Shown here: positions 3,387-28,440 of the stretch, piece after piece
Position numbering within the stretch: position 1 is the stretch's first letter
Layout: every line of letters starts with the position of its first letter
Source: Marilutibacter spongiae
GTDB lineage: Bacteria; Pseudomonadota; Gammaproteobacteria; Xanthomonadales; Xanthomonadaceae
Assembly (NCBI RefSeq): GCF_014145325.1
Contig: NZ_JACHTF010000005.1
Coordinates: forward strand, 124,001 to 188,000
DNA length: 64,000 nt
Direction: 5' to 3'
Notes under the pieces: generated by a model
The model's database searches: none
The model's input: only the letters and a program-made list of their open reading frames with translations
What the model was told of the DNA's origin: nothing
Program-made: the position numbers and the translations under genes

Positions 3387-3580
3387 GTATCTCTCCCCGG
3401 GACAAGGCCGCATGGCGGCGAAGCGGGGGCCGGTGGGCACCCGCCCGCCTCCCCGCGAATCAGGCGCCCACGATACCCGGAATCGGCGCCGCGGTCGTGC
3501 GGCCGCACGACGCCCCGTCCTTCGTGACGCCAGTCACGGCGCGCGGTCCAGGTCGGGTCGGGTGCGCGCAAGCGACCCGC

Positions 3581-6500
3581 TCAGGCCAGGCCGCCGGCCT
3601 CCGGGGTGCTGGACTCGAGCTTTTCCAGTTCGTGCTTCACCGCGTCCGGCGAGCGCGTGTAGCGCGCAAGCAGCACGTAGAACACGGGCACGATGAACAG
3701 CGACAGCAGGGTCGAGAACGAGACGCCGAAGATCACCACGACGCCGATCGTCGCGCGGCTGGCCGAGCCGGGTCCGCCGGCCAGCACCAGCGGCAGCGCA
3801 CCGGCGACGGTGGCGATCGAGGTCATCAGGATCGGCCGCAGCCGCACCGCCGATGCCTCGACGATCGCTTCGTGGATGCTCCGCCCGGCATCGCGCAACT
3901 GGTTGGCGAACTCGACGATGAGAATGCCGTTCTTCGCAGCAAGGCCGACCAGCATGACGATTCCGATCTGGCTGAACAGGTTCAGCGTGCCCCCGGTCAC
4001 CAGCAGTCCCAGCAGCGCGCCGAGCACGCCCAGCGGCACCGTCAGCATGATCACGAAGGGATGGATGAAGCTTTCGAACTGCGCCGCCAGCACCAGGTAG
4101 ACGATCAACAGCGCCAGCACGAAGGTCAGCAGCACCGCGCTGCCGGCCTTCTGGTACTCGCGCGACTCGCCCTTCCAGTCGATCTGCGCCTGCTCGGGCA
4201 GCTCCTCGCGCACCACCTGGTTGAGCCAGGCGATCGCGTCGCCCAGCCGGTAGCCGTCGGCGAGGCCCGCGCTGATGGTGATCGCGCGCAGGCGGTTGAA
4301 GCGGTTCAGGCTGCCCGCTTCGGCCAGCTCGGTCAGGCTGACCAGGTTCGACAGCGGCACCAGCTCGCCGTTGCGGGCCCGGACCTGGATCGCCTGGAGG
4401 TCGGCCGGCGTCGCCCGCGCGGGCTTGTCGGCCTGCAGGACGACGTCGTACTCCTCGCCGTCCTGGACGAAGGTGGTGACCCGGCGACTGCCCATCATGG
4501 TTTCCAGCGCGCGACCGATCGAGGAGACGCTCACGCCCAGGTCGGCCGCCCGCTGGCGGTCGATCTGGACGCGCATCTGCGGTCGGGTCTCCTTGTAGTC
4601 GGAGTCGGCGCCGTACAGGTTGGGATTGTCGTCGATCCGCTTGAGCACGCGGTCGCGCCACTCCGCCAGTTCGGCGTAGTCGGGGCCGCCGATGACGATC
4701 TGCAGCGGCTGGCCGCCACTGCGCACCAGGCCGGTACGGACCCGCGGGAAAGCGCGCACGCCGGTGAGCTTGTCCAGTTCGCCGCGCAGTTGCTCGACCA
4801 CGTCGTTGGTGCTGACGTCGCGCTTGTCCCAGTCCTGCAGGAACACGATGACGTTGCCGGTGTGCATTTCCTCGCTGGCGCCCCAGCCGCCCGGCACGCG
4901 CGTGTTGGCGCGCAGGATCGGCCGGTCCTCCTCGCCGGGCTTGGCGATCTGCTCGTCCATGATCGCCTCGACCTGGTGGATCTGCCCGACGGTGTAGTCG
5001 AAGCCCGCGCCCTCCGGCCCTTCGACCGAAACGAAGAACACGCCGCGGTCCTCCGGCGGCGCCAGCTCGGTGGGCATCCAGCGGAACAGGCCGAAGATCG
5101 CCACCAGCGACACCACCATCAGCAGCCCGAAGACCCAGGGATGCTCGACGCTGCGGTCCAGGAAGCGGCGGTAGCGCTCGCCGAGCCGGTCCAGGCGCGC
5201 GGTGATCCACCGATGCACGGGGTTGGACTTCTCCTCGCTGTGCGGCCGCAGCAGCTTGGAGGCCATCATCGGGCTCAGGGTCAGGGCGACGAAGGCGGAG
5301 ATCGCCACCGCGCTGGCCAGCGCGACCGAAAGCTCGCGGAACAGGCGCCCGGTGTTGCCCTCCATGAAGCCCACCGGCAGGAACACCGCCACCAGCACCG
5401 CGGTGGTGGCGATGACGGCGAACGCAACCTGTTTGGTGCCGCGCGAGGCGGCGACCAGCCGCGGTTCGCCCAGGTCGGTCCGGCGCTGGATGTTCTCCAG
5501 CACCACGATGGCGTCGTCGACCACCAGGCCGATGCACAGCACCAGCGCCAACAGGGTCAGCAGGTTGATCGAGAAGCCGAACAGGTAGAGCGGGATGAAC
5601 GCCGCCACCAGGCAGACGGGCACCGTCAGGGCCGGGATCAGCGCGGCGCGGAAGCTGCCCAGGAACAGCCAGATCACCAGCAGCACGAGGACGATGGCCT
5701 CGGCCAGGGTGTGGTAGACGCGCTCGATGGCTGCCTCGATGAACAAGGTGCTGTCGTAGGCGACGAAGATGTCCGTGCCCTGCGGCAGGGTCGGCTGGAT
5801 GCGCTCGGCTTCCTCGCGCGCCGCCCGCGCCACTTCCAGCGCGTTGGCGGTGGAGGTCTTGTTGATGCCCAGGCCGATGTTCGGCTCGCCATTGCTCCGG
5901 TAGTAGGCGCGGCGCTCGGCGGACTCGAGTTCGACGCGGGCGACGTCGCCCAGGCGCACGACGTAACCGTCGTCGCCCTTGCGCAAGGGGATGCGCGCGA
6001 AGTCCTCCGGCGCCTGGTAGCTGCGCGCCAGGCGCAGGGTGAAGTCGCGGCTGTCGGACTCGATGCGCCCGGCCGGCAGTTCGACGTTCTCCGCGCGCAA
6101 CGCGTCCTCGACGTCGTTGGCGGTGATGCCGCGTGCGGCCATGGCATTGCTGTCGAGCCAGATCCGCATGGCGTAGCGCTGCTGCCCGCCGATGCGCACC
6201 GTGGACACGCCGTCCAGGCTGGACAGACGGTCGACGATGTAGCGCTCGGCATAGTCGCTCAGCTCCAGCGCGTCCATCGTGGTGCTGTTCATGTTGAGCC
6301 AGATGACCGTGTCCGAATCGCTGTCGGCCTTCTCCACTTCCGGCGGATCGGCCTCGTCGGGCATGCGGTCGGCGACGCCGCTGATCGCGTCGCGCACGTC
6401 GTTGGCGGCGGCTTCGATGTCGCGTTCCAGGGTGAACTCGATGGTCACCGACGAACGTCCGTTGACGCTGCGCGATGAAATCGTCTCCACGCCCTCGATG

Positions 6501-22974: not shown

Positions 22975-23012
22975 AAAAAAGAAAAGACCGGGCAGGCCCG
23001 GTCTTTTCTTCT
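22975..23012 (-). terminator. terminator of gap (bidirectional shape)
   Basis: A 12-bp perfect stem (arms 22982-22993 and 22996-23007, core GACCGGGC/GCCCGGTC) is flanked by T runs in both directions. On the minus strand the tail reads CTTTTTTCGGG. It lies 34 bases beyond the gap stop codon. Confidence 0.85.
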
Positions 23013-23045: not shown

Positions 23046-24104
<1,059 letters not shown>

Positions 24105-24901: not shown

Positions 24902-25699
24902 ATGAACCTGCGTACCGCACTGGCCGCCACGGCGCTGGCCGCCGCCCTCGTCCTGCCCCCTCCCGCCCACGCCTGGGGCGCGATGGGCCACCGCCTGGTG
25001 GCCGACCTCGCCTGGGACGCGATGACGCCTCGGGCGCGCGCCGGCGCCCGGGACCTGCTCGCGCTCGAAGGCGATGCACGCCTGGCCGACGTCGCCAGCT
25101 GGGCCGACGAGCTGCGCGCGAGCGACCCCGACCTGGGCCGGCGCAGTGCGCGCTGGCACTACGTCAACATCGCCGAAGGCGACTGCCACTACCGCGCCGG
25201 ACGCGACTGCCCAGGCGGCGACTGCGTGGTCGCCGCGATCGAGGCGCAGGCGGCGATCCTCGCCGATCCCGGCCAGTCGCGCGCGGCGCGCCTGCAGGCA
25301 CTGAAGTTCGTGGTCCATTTCGTCGGCGACGTCCACCAGCCGCTGCACGCGGGCCGCGCCCACGACCGCGGCGGCAACACCTATCAGCTCAACATCGACG
25401 GGCGCGGCAGCAACCTGCATGCGCTGTGGGACAGCGGCCTGCTCGCCCAGGCGGGCCTCGACGAGACCGGCTGGCTCGCGCGCCTGCGGCGCTTGCCCGC
25501 GATCGGTGCCACGCCTGCATCGATACCGGCCGACTGGGCCGAAGCCTCCTGTGGCATCGTCGAGCGCCCGGGCTTCTATCCGCCCAAGGGCACGCTGGAT
25601 CCGGCCTATGCCGGGCCGTGGCTGCCGGTGGCCGAGCAGCAGCTGCGCCTGGGCGGCCAGCACCTGGCCGAGGTGCTCAACCGCGCGCTCGGCGGCTGA
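24902..25699 (+). CDS. secreted S1/P1-type nuclease
   Basis: A 265-aa zinc-dependent nuclease of the S1/P1 family, cutting single-stranded nucleic acids outside the cytoplasm. The signal peptide ends PPPAHA, leaving WGAMGHRLVADLAW as the mature start: the N-terminal tryptophan is itself a zinc ligand in this family. Further ligands are expected in LADVASWADELR, RWHYVNI, FVVHFVGDVHQPLHAG and GGNTYQLNIDGRGSNLHALWD, all present. Four cysteines (two in DCHYRAGRDC, one in GGDC and one in ASCG) probably form disulfides. The gene stands 65 bases after the ompW-like gene and has its own -10 box placed for a leaderless message. Confidence 0.92.
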   Translation: MNLRTALAATALAAALVLPPPAHAWGAMGHRLVADLAWDAMTPRARAGARDLLALEGDARLADVASWADELRASDPDLGRRSARWHYVNIAEGDCHYRAGRDCPGGDCVVAAIEAQAAILADPGQSRAARLQALKFVVHFVGDVHQPLHAGRAHDRGGNTYQLNIDGRGSNLHALWDSGLLAQAGLDETGWLARLRRLPAIGATPASIPADWAEASCGIVERPGFYPPKGTLDPAYAGPWLPVAEQQLRLGGQHLAEVLNRALGG

Positions 25700-25712
25700 C
25701 GCCGGGCAGGCG

Positions 25713-26282
25713 TCACTCGGCCGGCAGGCCGAGCTGGCGTCGCACCTGCGGCTCGGCCATGCCCAGGCCCGCGCGGCGCCCCAGCTCGACCGCTTCTCCG
25801 GCAGGCATGCCGTCCAGCGCCGCGGCCAGCGCCACCAGGCCGCCGACACGGTTGCCGGAGGCGCAATGCACGAGCACCGTGCCCTCCGACCCGGCGAGCA
25901 GCACGCGCAGGCGTTCGGCATTCGCGGCGTCGATCCCGGCCCCACCCTCCACCGGTATCGCGTCGTAGGCCATCCCGGCGGCCGCCACCTCGGCCGCCTC
26001 GTCGCGACCGGCCATTTCCGTGTCGGTGCGGAGGTTGACCACCCGGGTCACGCCCATCGCCCTGAGCCGGTCCCAGTCCTCCGGCGCGGGCTGGCCGGCC
26101 GCCAGCAGGCCGCTCCTGGCCAGGCGCAGGTGGGGGATACCGGTCGCGGACGGATCCGCCGGCGGAGAAGTAGGCTCGACGTGCATGGACATGTTCATCG
26201 CGGCGGTTCCGTTGGGGGGCGATGTGCCGCAGGCCACCAGGGCTGCGGACAAGGCCATTGGAGGGAAGAGCGCGGCGTTCAT
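25713..26282 (-). CDS. DUF442-type sulfurtransferase/phosphatase-like protein, probable lipoprotein
   Basis: A 189-aa protein. Residues 1-18 look like a short lipoprotein signal (lipobox LVAC, Cys18), though the start lacks the usual positive charges. The rest matches the DUF442/tyrosine-phosphatase-like fold: SGLLAAGQPAPEDWDRLRAM, VVNLRTDTEM, and the active loop VHCASGNRVGG with Cys140 and Arg145. The CX4R spacing is like rhodanese loops and the DUF442 domain that is fused to the dioxygenase in Blh proteins. The start codon overlaps the stop of the upstream arsR-type gene by 4 bases (ATGA), so the two are translationally coupled. A periplasmic sulfur-transfer role is inferred from this context. 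Confidence 0.65.
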   Translation of the reverse strand: MNAALFPPMALSAALVACGTSPPNGTAAMNMSMHVEPTSPPADPSATGIPHLRLARSGLLAAGQPAPEDWDRLRAMGVTRVVNLRTDTEMAGRDEAAEVAAAGMAYDAIPVEGGAGIDAANAERLRVLLAGSEGTVLVHCASGNRVGGLVALAAALDGMPAGEAVELGRRAGLGMAEPQVRRQLGLPAE

Positions 26283-26617
26283 CGCGCCGACGGCCCGCAG
26301 TAGATGTCGTGCAGGGTTGCCATGACCTGCTGCGCCGGCCCCGGCTGCAGGCGATAGAACACCTGCACGCCTTCCCGGCGGGTGTCGACGATCCCGGCCT
26401 CGCGCAACACGGCCAGGTGCTGGGACAGCGCCGACTGCGAGAGCGCGAGGCGCGCATGGAGCTCGCCGACCGCCAGTTCGCCCTCGACCAGGTGGCACAG
26501 GATCATCAGGCGCTGCGGATTGCCGAGCGTGCGCAACAGGGTCGAGGCATCGGCGGCATGCACCTGCATCCGTTCGAGATCGAGGTCGCCGGTGGACATG
26601 GGAACGGCAGCGTTCAC
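26279..26617 (-). CDS. bigR: ArsR-family repressor, BigR/SqrR-like sulfide sensor
   Basis: A 112-aa winged-helix repressor. The helix-turn-helix is VGELHARLALSQSALSQHLA (about 50-69), followed by the wing VDTRREGVQVFYRL. Two cysteines, Cys41 in ILCHLVEG and Cys107 in HDIYCGP, sit where BigR of Xylella and relatives keeps its redox pair (about 42 and 108), which forms a disulfide or polysulfide bond in response to sulfide. The start is GTG 26617, with AAGGAGAG ending 4 bases upstream; ATGs further upstream fall within the predicted promoter. It is transcribed away from the persulfide dioxygenase operon and should repress both directions through the shared operator at 26635-26697. Confidence 0.85.
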   Translation of the reverse strand: MNAAVPMSTGDLDLERMQVHAADASTLLRTLGNPQRLMILCHLVEGELAVGELHARLALSQSALSQHLAVLREAGIVDTRREGVQVFYRLQPGPAQQVMATLHDIYCGPSAR

Positions 26618-26634
26618 TGCGCTCTCCTTTGCTT

Positions 26635-26697
26635 GGAATGCCGTCATTATATCACTACTTGCTAATTTAGCAATAGCTAATATAATGACGGCATTCC
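26635..26697. promoter_or_regulatory. nested palindromic operator with mirror-image divergent promoters
   Basis: Two perfect inverted repeats share one axis at base 26666. The outer arms are 18 bp (26635-26652 and 26680-26697); the inner arms are TTGCTAA and TTAGCAA (26659-26665, 26667-26673). The outer arms carry a perfect TATAAT in each direction (26681-26686 plus; 26651-26646 minus), the inner arms a TTGCTA as -35, each 16 bases from its -10. Predicted starts are near 26693 and 26639, each giving a leader of about 21-22 nt with a good ribosome site. This is the expected place for a BigR-type repressor to bind. Confidence 0.85.
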
Positions 26698-26713
26698 CGA
26701 CAGGAGATGTCGA

Positions 26714-27580
26714 ATGAACACCTTGGTCCATCCCTTCTTCCACGCCGATACCAATACCTGGACGTACCTCGTCCACGCCGAAGGCGCCCACGAAGCCGCG
26801 GTGATCGATCCGGTCCTGGACTTCGACCCCAAGTCCGGACGCACGGACAGGCACTCGGCCCAGGCCCTGGTCGATGCCGTCGCGGCAGCCGGCCTGGACG
26901 TGCGCTGGATCCTGGAAACCCATGCCCACGCCGACCATCTCAGCGCCGGCCACTGGCTGAAAGCCCAATGGCCCGGCGCCACCCTCGCCATCGGCGAAGG
27001 CATCCGCGCCGTGCAGGAGACGTTCCGCTCGATCTTCAACCTGGGCGACGGCTTCCCGATCGACGGTTCGCAGTTCGACCGCCTATTGAGCGACGGCGAG
27101 ACCTTCGACATCGGCCCCCTCCAGGCGCGGGTGATCGCCGTGCCGGGACACACCCGCGACAGCAACGCCTTCCTGGTCGGCGATGCGCTGTTCACCGGCG
27201 ACTCGATCTTCATGCCCGACGGCGGCACCGCCCGCTGCGACTTCCCGGGCGGCAATGCGCGCACCCTCTACCGCTCGATCCACAAGCTGTTCGACACCCT
27301 GCCCGACGACACGCGGGTGTTCGTCTGCCACGACTACGGTCCGGGGGGCCGCGCCTTCGCCTGCCAGAGCAGCATCGGCGACCAGAAGCGCGACAACATC
27401 CACGTCGGCCAGGGCATCGACGAAGACCGCTTCGTCGAGATGCGGGAGACGCGCGACGCCACCCTGGCGATGCCCACGCTGATCCTGCCGTCGGTGCAGG
27501 TCAACATCCGCGCCGGCCAGCTGCCGCCGGCCGAGGACAACGGCGTGCGCTATCTCAAGCTTCCCCTCGACCTGCTGTGA
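26714..27580 (+). CDS. blh: ETHE1-like persulfide dioxygenase (Blh type), metallo-beta-lactamase fold
   Basis: A 288-aa MBL-fold protein predicted to oxidise glutathione persulfide to sulfite using one iron. Metal ligands: ETHAHADHL gives His70, His72, Asp74 and His75; VPGHTRDS gives His146; LFTGDSIF gives Asp163; VFVCHDYGPGG gives His206. The sequence is the stand-alone dioxygenase part of Blh; the DUF442 half found in Xylella/Agrobacterium Blh is absent here and is encoded across the promoter. AGGAGA lies 6-11 bases before ATG 26714. It is first in a four-gene operon with two YeeE/YedE-type proteins and a TauE/SafE exporter. Confidence 0.9.
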   Translation: MNTLVHPFFHADTNTWTYLVHAEGAHEAAVIDPVLDFDPKSGRTDRHSAQALVDAVAAAGLDVRWILETHAHADHLSAGHWLKAQWPGATLAIGEGIRAVQETFRSIFNLGDGFPIDGSQFDRLLSDGETFDIGPLQARVIAVPGHTRDSNAFLVGDALFTGDSIFMPDGGTARCDFPGGNARTLYRSIHKLFDTLPDDTRVFVCHDYGPGGRAFACQSSIGDQKRDNIHVGQGIDEDRFVEMRETRDATLAMPTLILPSVQVNIRAGQLPPAEDNGVRYLKLPLDLL

Positions 27581-27595
27581 CGCGGAGCACCCGGC

Positions 27596-28027
27596 ATGAG
27601 CGTAGCCACTGAGTTCACCCCCCTCGCGTCGCTGGCGGGCGGCGCCCTGATCGGACTGGCGGCGACCTGGCTGCTCGCGTCCATCGGCCGCATCGCCGGC
27701 ATCAGCGGCGTGCTCAACCAGGCGGTCGAGCAACGCGACGGCCGCGCCTGGCGGCTGGCGTTCCTGGCCGGACTGGTCGTCGCCGCCGGCGCCTGGTTCC
27801 ATGCCACCGGCGTACTGCCGCGCGCCGGTTTCCCGCTGCCGCTGCTGGTGGCGGCGGGCCTGCTGGTCGGCTTCGGCACGCGTCTGGGCAACGGCTGCAC
27901 CAGCGGCCATGGCATCTGCGGGCTGGCGCGTCTGTCCCGGCGATCGCTGGTTGCAGTCGCGGTCTTCATGGCCTGCGGCTTCGCGACGGTGTACATCGTC
28001 CGCCACCTTGCCGGGGGCGCGCCATGA
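27596..28027 (+). CDS. YeeE/YedE-type membrane protein (N-terminal half unit)
   Basis: A 143-aa protein with about four membrane helices. The hallmark [17 protein letters not shown] (about 99-115) carries the cysteines that conduct thiosulfate or related sulfur compounds in YeeE/YedE-family transporters. In many genomes two such small proteins act together as one transporter; here the second overlaps this one by 4 bases (ATGA). It follows the dioxygenase gene by 15 bases. A role in moving sulfur oxyanions or persulfide sulfur across the membrane is inferred. Confidence 0.85.
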
Positions 28028-28440
28028 GGCCCGCACTGCATGCGCTGCTCGCCGGGGCCCTGTTCGGACTCGGCCTGGCGGTCTCGGGCATGACCAACCC
28101 CGACAAGGTGCTGAACTTCCTCGACATCGCCGGCACCTGGGACCCTTCGCTGGCCCTGGTCATGGGCGGTGCCCTCGCGGTGAGCCTGCCCGGCTATGCC
28201 TGGGTCCGCCGGCGCAATCGCACCTTCTGCGACACGCCCTTGCCGGACGCGCCATCCACGCGCCTGGACGGCCGCCTGCTGGGCGGCAGCGCCCTGTTCG
28301 GCGTGGGCTGGGGCCTGGCGGGCTTCTGCCCGGGACCGGGACTGGCCAACCTCGCGCACGGCAGCCTCGAAGCGGTTGTGTTCATGCTGGCCTTGCTGGC
28401 AGGCTCGGCACTGGCCCGCTTCATGGTTCCCCCCAATTGA
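28024..28440 (+). CDS. YeeE/YedE-type membrane protein, DUF6691-like second half
   Basis: A 138-aa membrane partner of the preceding gene. The N-terminal segment [25 protein letters not shown] and the later [20 protein letters not shown] are typical of the second half of split YeeE/YedE transporters; the cysteine in GFCPGP is the conserved conduction residue. It overlaps its upstream neighbour by 4 bases, and its stop overlaps the TTG start of the TauE-type gene by 3 bases, so the three are expected to be translated together. Confidence 0.82.

Follow-up and report, generated by a model that had tools for sequence, protein, structure and literature searches.

How are two genes that face away from each other, and that together match a single two-domain enzyme, held under one control? 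The question is raised by a 63-bp quasi-palindrome at 26635-26697 of the 64-kb stretch of DNA analysed here (the window). The initial annotation described mirror-image promoters in this element and proposed that a single repressor dimer on its axis shuts both. Judging from the sequence, we think it likely that the element serves as a common control region for a sulfide and persulfide detoxification locus, on which two dimers of a persulfide-sensing ArsR repressor would sit side by side, one per promoter.

Two pairs of exact arms share an axis at base 26666. The outer arms (26635-26652 and 26680-26697) pair at 18 of 18 positions and the inner arms (26659-26665 and 26667-26673) at seven of seven; the nested palindrome claimed at the outset holds. 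Between them (26653-26658 against 26674-26679) one pair of six is symmetric, and over the whole element 52 of the 63 positions are self-symmetric. GC content is 37%, against 70% for the window. On a gapless-palindrome score of our own, the element ranks first in the window (16; the runner-up has 13). Among the exact inverted repeats listed (at least 16, within 100 bp), it alone has arms that are separate; the rest are short palindromes that overlap themselves. Shuffling the element's own letters 200,000 times never produced 18-bp terminal arms. Folded as single-stranded DNA, it reaches -22.5 kcal/mol, compared with a shuffle mean of -3.85. The second-best palindrome of the window, at about 22979-23010 (axis 22994.5), lies just past the end of an open reading frame at 23046-24047 and is perhaps a terminator.

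Each half of the palindrome contains a promoter-like site. A consensus scan of 25500-28000 found two where 0.2 would be expected, both TTGCTA-16-TATAAT, confirming that two divergent promoters overlap here (Table 1). They had been called near-identical. This is true of the hexamers and of the spacer length, but a TG extending the -10 element stands before the minus (arsR-side) promoter only and is missing from the plus promoter. With starts predicted 7 nt past each -10 hexamer, the two transcripts would begin 54 bp apart; the -35 hexamers are separated by 3 bp. The initial annotation held that two polymerases cannot initiate at once. By this geometry, probably only one polymerase at a time could use the paired promoters. 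The 5' sequence supposedly common to both transcripts, GGCATTCC, has to be replaced: the predicted shared start is ATTCC. After it the leaders run for 21 nt on the plus strand and 22 nt on the minus strand, both with AGGAG-type sites.

Table 1. Features of the locus, in positions of the window
Feature	Position	Strand	Basis or remark
Quasi-palindrome, 18-bp outer and 7-bp inner arms	26635-26697	none	repeat search, palindrome score, fold, shuffles
Putative promoter of the persulfide dioxygenase operon	26659-26686	+	consensus scan; -10 positions kept in aligned loci
Parts of the plus promoter	TTGCTA 26659-26664; 16 bp; TATAAT 26681-26686; predicted start 26693	+	start inferred
Putative promoter of arsR	26646-26673	-	consensus scan; aligned loci
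Parts of the minus promoter	TTGCTA 26673-26668; 16 bp; TATAAT 26651-26646; predicted start 26639	-	start inferred
Candidate operator O1, TTAGCAATAGCTAA, perfect TTAG-N6-CTAA	26667-26680	none	in plus-promoter spacer; kept in relatives
Candidate operator O2, TCACTACTTGCTAA, 6/8 match to TTAG-N6-CTAA	26652-26665	none	in minus-promoter spacer
BigR/SqrR/HlyU-like ArsR regulator, 112 aa, GTG start, AAGGAG upstream	26279-26617	-	profiles, structure-sequence alignment
DUF442/TIGR01244 sulfurtransferase-like protein, the Blh N-terminal half, behind arsR	25713-26303	-	Blh profile positions 7-127
ETHE1-like persulfide dioxygenase, the Blh C-terminal half, first gene of the plus operon	26714-27580	+	Blh profile positions 143-423
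Two small proteins of sulphur-transport (YeeE-like) and DUF6691 kind, next downstream	27596-28440	+	profiles

In the available text of PMC5823870, Blh of Xylella and Agrobacterium is a single two-domain protein. Here the halves of the Blh profile (NF040641) are matched by separate genes flanking the element; the two domains of the single protein therefore correspond to separate genes on either side of it. The small proteins encoded downstream on the plus strand match PF20398 above its cut-off, PF04143 just below it and TsuA weakly, below cut-off. By eye, a possible lipoprotein signal (LVAC) can be made out close to the N terminus of the sulfurtransferase-like protein, provided that translation begins at an upstream ATG.

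Profile search confirms that the regulator adjoining the promoters is of ArsR type; it matches Pfam HTH_5. Its best NCBIfam family by E-value is BigR (NF040642), yet it scores 111 bits against a cut-off of 155, so by the NCBIfam rule it is BigR-like and not BigR proper. The best matches among solved structures are HlyU and BigR. Two cysteines, one in helix alpha2 and one near the C terminus, align with those of BigR (3pqj). The recognition helix is identical to that of HlyU (chain 4k2e) and differs from that of Xylella BigR. Persulfide sensors of this family are recognised by an ArsR winged helix with cysteines in alpha2 and near the C terminus and by linkage to sulfurtransferase and persulfide dioxygenase genes; both traits are present here. 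The low BigR score, the helix unlike that of Xylella BigR and the imperfect O2 nevertheless count against the paired-dimer reading.

How far is the element kept in relatives? We searched 395 genomes of the family for the core motif GCTAAWTTAGCAANNNCTAATA, allowing up to two mismatches. It occurs in 33, compared with two for the backwards control, and a BigR-like arsR gene adjoins the site in all 33. One extra site, in genome G187, has no adjoining arsR. Among the named relatives found, Lysobacter aestuarii is closest, with 97% identity in ArsR and 94% in the dioxygenase; genus g11 supplies nine of the 33 loci. All 31 regulators that can be read by pattern, out of 33, have the recognition helix SQSALSQHL with cysteines at -19/-20 and +47 from it. 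In 11 of these readable loci (L085, L086, L096-L100, L102-L104 and L081), an in-frame arsR ATG falls at the predicted start, 27 bp from the axis, and the arsR mRNA is predicted to be leaderless there. The genus member at L072 (G065) keeps the dioxygenase at 75% identity, and neither arsR nor the motif was found within 1.5 kb of it. In Parapusillimonas granuli (L064) the core motif flanks arsR on both sides, at 3499-3531 and 3918-3939, with two to four mismatches.

The facing gene is a divergent dioxygenase in 15 of the 33 genomes. The sulfurtransferase gene lies right behind arsR in ten of these and further off in two, and is absent from the roughly 1.5 kb examined in three. In 18 genomes the facing gene is something else, which also counts against the paired-dimer reading. 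Seventeen of them were read by eye and encode a flavoprotein with a weak sulfide:quinone-reductase match, an AhpD/CMD-type protein or a HlyD-like protein, the types being profile-checked on one example each (L076, L085 and L105).

A class-wide search with a longer pattern, again allowing up to two mismatches, matched four of 274 genomes and left the window's own genome unmatched. One match (G010) is a member of the family. G608, from outside it, has arsR beside the site, and no arsR was found beside the matches in G423 and G412, also outside the family. In G608 (L142/L144), which belongs to another family of the class, the same double element stands next to an arsR of about 51% identity.

Alignment of the 33 loci, with three further rows (two of Parapusillimonas and the second site of G187) left out of the statistics, shows CTAA at -4 to -1 in 32 and TTAG at +1 to +4 in 30. 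CTAA at +11 to +14 is found in 26, and the TTAG at -14 to -11 is degenerate, being exact in eight. Both -10 hexamers are kept, with A at -15 in 31 rows, T at -19 in 29 and T at +17 in 26. Because the search pattern forces one near-perfect box, part of the conservation at -5 to +7 and +11 to +16 is built in; the arsR-side -10 and distal half are free of this in the 26 rows whose better box is opposite. The comparison with related genomes that the initial annotation called for thus has two outcomes: the box and the -10 sequences are conserved, and the outer arms are not.

Which sequence would the repressor recognise? Of the upstream regions of 43 loci with an arsR match, a set in which some places are counted twice, 16 contain the 14-bp box TTAG-N6-CTAA without mismatch and seven contain it with a single one. 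In these loci, three control palindromes of like shape had no exact match, and two, two and five with one mismatch. In the 3.63-Mb genome the exact box occurs once, as O1, with no second copy elsewhere, and the backwards control pattern occurs in four places. The other candidate is the axis sequence TTGCTAATTTAGCAA, on which one dimer would shut both promoters. This we consider unlikely. Conservation across the 33 aligned loci peaks at CTAA-W-TTAG, partly since the search pattern contains it, but CTAAWTTAG is exact in only nine of the 43 loci and always accompanies a TTAG-N6-CTAA of at most one mismatch, whereas seven other loci have the exact box without it. In these sequence comparisons the conserved unit is the 14-bp box and not the axis palindrome.

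Published operators bear on the same choice. The NolR consensus (A/T)TTAG-N9-A(T/A), given in the available text of PMC12445080, is matched, read directly, at 26666-26681 on the plus strand and 26666-26651 on the minus strand, that is by the 14-bp boxes and not by the axis; O1 does not match the stricter form (A/T)TTAG-N8-GA(T/A)G. An oligonucleotide of the hlyA operator bound by HlyU, as given in the part of PMC10509353 available, contains CTAAATTAG and hence CTAA-W-TTAG, in favour of the axis; by our reading it also holds TTAA-N6-CTAA. Because both sequences are present, the oligonucleotide is neutral between the two models. The published SqrR site, ATTC-N8-GAAT, is unlike the box, which tells against the paired-dimer reading, and inspection of 26600-26720 by eye for exact matches found none.

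The two boxes of the window differ in quality. They stand one base apart, 15 bp from centre to centre, and the centre of O1 is 7.5 bp away from the axis. The distal half of O2 reads TCAC in place of TTAG, and for this reason a strict paired pattern misses the window genome, a further point against the paired-dimer reading. O2 matches at six of eight positions, and in many relatives the sequence of its distal half is degenerate; it may therefore be a weak site, or one that is bound only when O1 assists. The better box is on the target-gene side in 24 of the 33 loci, with four ties and five cases of the reverse; the pattern demands one good box and leaves the side free. Together with the TG on the arsR side, this would fit a target-gene promoter that is kept tightly shut and an arsR promoter that leaks more.

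How are paired boxes spaced? We scanned the 395 genomes for box pairs, with CTDA permitted and any gap of 0-14 bp. Such pairs occur at 109 places, spread over 107 genomes, and by our count the backwards control has matches in 13 genomes. The gap is 1 bp in 30 places, 2 bp in 73 and 4 bp in six, and no pair occurs at any other gap in this range. Neighbourhoods were inspected for 30 of the 109 places, and 27 of these 30 have an arsR match within 1.5 kb. A 2-bp example reads TTAG-N6-CTAA-TA-TTAG-N6-CTGA. At the 4-bp loci L136-L138 the ArsR is more distant, at about 41% identity, and may be a different regulator that follows a pairing rule of its own. Because the box keeps its length while the junction varies between 1, 2 and 4 bp, the box behaves as the unit, and two dimers side by side are likelier than one on the axis. 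With O1 centred off the axis and the junction shifting in relatives, the single axial dimer of the initial annotation is not sustained.

The 21 gap-2 loci inspected (L110-L114, L117-L122, L124-L130 and L133-L135) mostly have the pair between a flavoprotein resembling sulfide:quinone reductase and either a rhodanese-like frame or arsR, as judged by eye. Could these pairs be one-way promoters? We rejected this idea: in 15 of the 21, again by eye, a flavoprotein-like frame lies opposite and faces away, and most gap-2 pairs are therefore divergent too. Gaps of 1 and 2 are set apart by their gene sets and promoter sequences rather than by a one-way or two-way layout, and this suggests that each gap has its own gene set. 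One could go further and postulate that the persulfide-sensing ArsR regulators of the family read a fixed two-box code, with gaps of 1, 2 and 4 only and a gene set for each, with cooperative dimers at gap 1 and with symmetry selected as a stoichiometry device. We hold this extension to be doubtful. The same tentative proposal would have the mirrored, mutually exclusive promoters deliver matched output of the split Blh halves.

Why, then, are the outer arms perfect? Strict symmetry over 63 bp, stressed in the initial annotation, is a property of the window genome and mostly disappears as an excess over 33 loci. There we compared each locus's own left and right arms with arms exchanged between loci in 2000 shuffles. 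The observed symmetry was reached in 1081 shuffles at +/-5 to 7, 436 at 8 to 10, 1957 at 11 to 14, 132 at 15 to 20, 29 at 21 to 26, 531 at 27 to 31 and 1608 at 32 to 40. Thus most stretches show no excess over exchanged arms in the 33 loci, and a weak one exists at +/-21 to 26 only. Selection across the family for the whole 63-bp symmetry is rejected by this exchange, and the perfect outer arms are special to the window genome. It is the most symmetric of the 33, with 26 of 31 pairs, ahead of G214 (24) and of L. aestuarii and G121 (23 each).

The arms may owe their identity to template switching during replication of a quasi-palindrome rather than to regulatory selection, an origin to which we give somewhat less than an even chance and which is compatible with the paired-dimer reading. 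Mutation by this route at quasi-palindromes is documented in E. coli in the available text of PMC7202029, and the near-chance symmetry at +/-27 to 31 in the 33 loci (0.303 against 0.279 expected) agrees with it, as does the lead of the window over the next-best locus. The weak family-wide excess at +/-21 to 26 speaks against it. So does the hexamer at +/-26 to 31, which is fully symmetric in three members of the genus (the window, L. aestuarii and G121) in two sequences: GGAATG/CATTCC in two of the genomes and GGGACG/CGTCCC in the third, two positions having changed on both arms. In these three genomes the pattern fits both template switching and selection on the first transcribed bases. That the palindrome acts as a cruciform, or through an RNA hairpin in read-through transcripts, is very improbable. 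Its strong single-strand fold is in favour, but a scan of 25500-28000 found no terminator-like site, searching 26200-27200 against Rfam gave nothing at the gathering threshold, and the long stem would be formed by outer arms that are not conserved, whereas the box and the -10 sequences are.

Several known systems resemble the arrangement in part. According to the available text of PMC5823870, BigR recognises the -10 region of its own promoter and is released by H2S and polysulfides. The bigR operon of Xylella fastidiosa and Agrobacterium (BigR, Blh and a TauE-like exporter) has, as proposed here, a two-cysteine ArsR-type repressor in control of a DUF442 sulfurtransferase and an ETHE1 dioxygenase; there Blh is one protein, whereas here its parts are on opposite strands behind mirrored promoters. 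HlyU of Vibrio is described, in the available text, as an activator of hemolysin transcription, unlike the candidate repressor here, and that description of hlyA includes no divergent mirrored promoter. NolR, also a solved-structure relative, shares half-site and operator length with both O1 and O2, but lacks cysteines (PMC8960804, as far as its available text goes), and the boxes here differ from its sites in being paired at fixed gaps. The 12-2-12 operators of SmtB/ArsR proteins likewise bind dimers at short inverted repeats close to promoters, with one or two in each control region; their sequence is different, and the available part of PMC8790569 describes no fixed pairing gap.

Divergent transcription from symmetric sequence also has precedents. 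In the Tn10 tetA/tetR region, overlapping divergent promoters are combined with two near-identical repressor operators, as is proposed here, although the repressor is of another family and the operators are further apart. In the bidirectional promoters of Warman, Grainger et al. (PMC12825309, available text), polymerase binds symmetric sequence in either of two exclusive orientations, using one shared -10 element, with starts commonly 10, 18 or 23 bp apart. The element here is not of that type, in which starts lie about 10-23 bp apart: its -10 hexamers, 26646-26651 and 26681-26686, are separate, and two complete promoters meet at their -35 ends. In the full-text literature searched, which lay mostly outside subscription papers, we found no description of paired TTAG-N6-CTAA boxes.

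Taking the promoter-like sites, the boxes with their conservation and pairing, the gene layout and the cysteines as read in the sequence, family knowledge and geometry suggest how the locus might work. Two sigma70-type promoters would lie back to back, with a box between the -35 and -10 of each, and each box would receive a single dimer of the BigR/SqrR/HlyU-like ArsR repressor encoded next to it. Because the box sits in the spacer, a dimer on it should keep that promoter shut; since the boxes are one base apart, the dimers would touch, bind side by side, perhaps cooperatively, and block both promoters. Persulfide would link the two conserved cysteines and cause the dimers to leave the DNA. 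Polymerase could then start in either direction, but not in both at once, making the dioxygenase half of Blh from the plus side and the repressor with the sulfurtransferase half from the minus side. Because the halves lie on opposite sides of a shared element, we propose that both are induced together.

The element is thus real, with a conserved core, and on the sequence evidence it probably combines two back-to-back promoters with a double operator to which a persulfide sensor of the BigR/HlyU type would bind. It is a tidy variant of a familiar type of control region. It suggests a route to co-induction of a two-domain enzyme that has been split over two strands, and it would offer a natural pair of near-identical promoters that compete for polymerase. 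For this clade of persulfide-sensing repressors, the paired boxes may amount to an operator code that can be tested.
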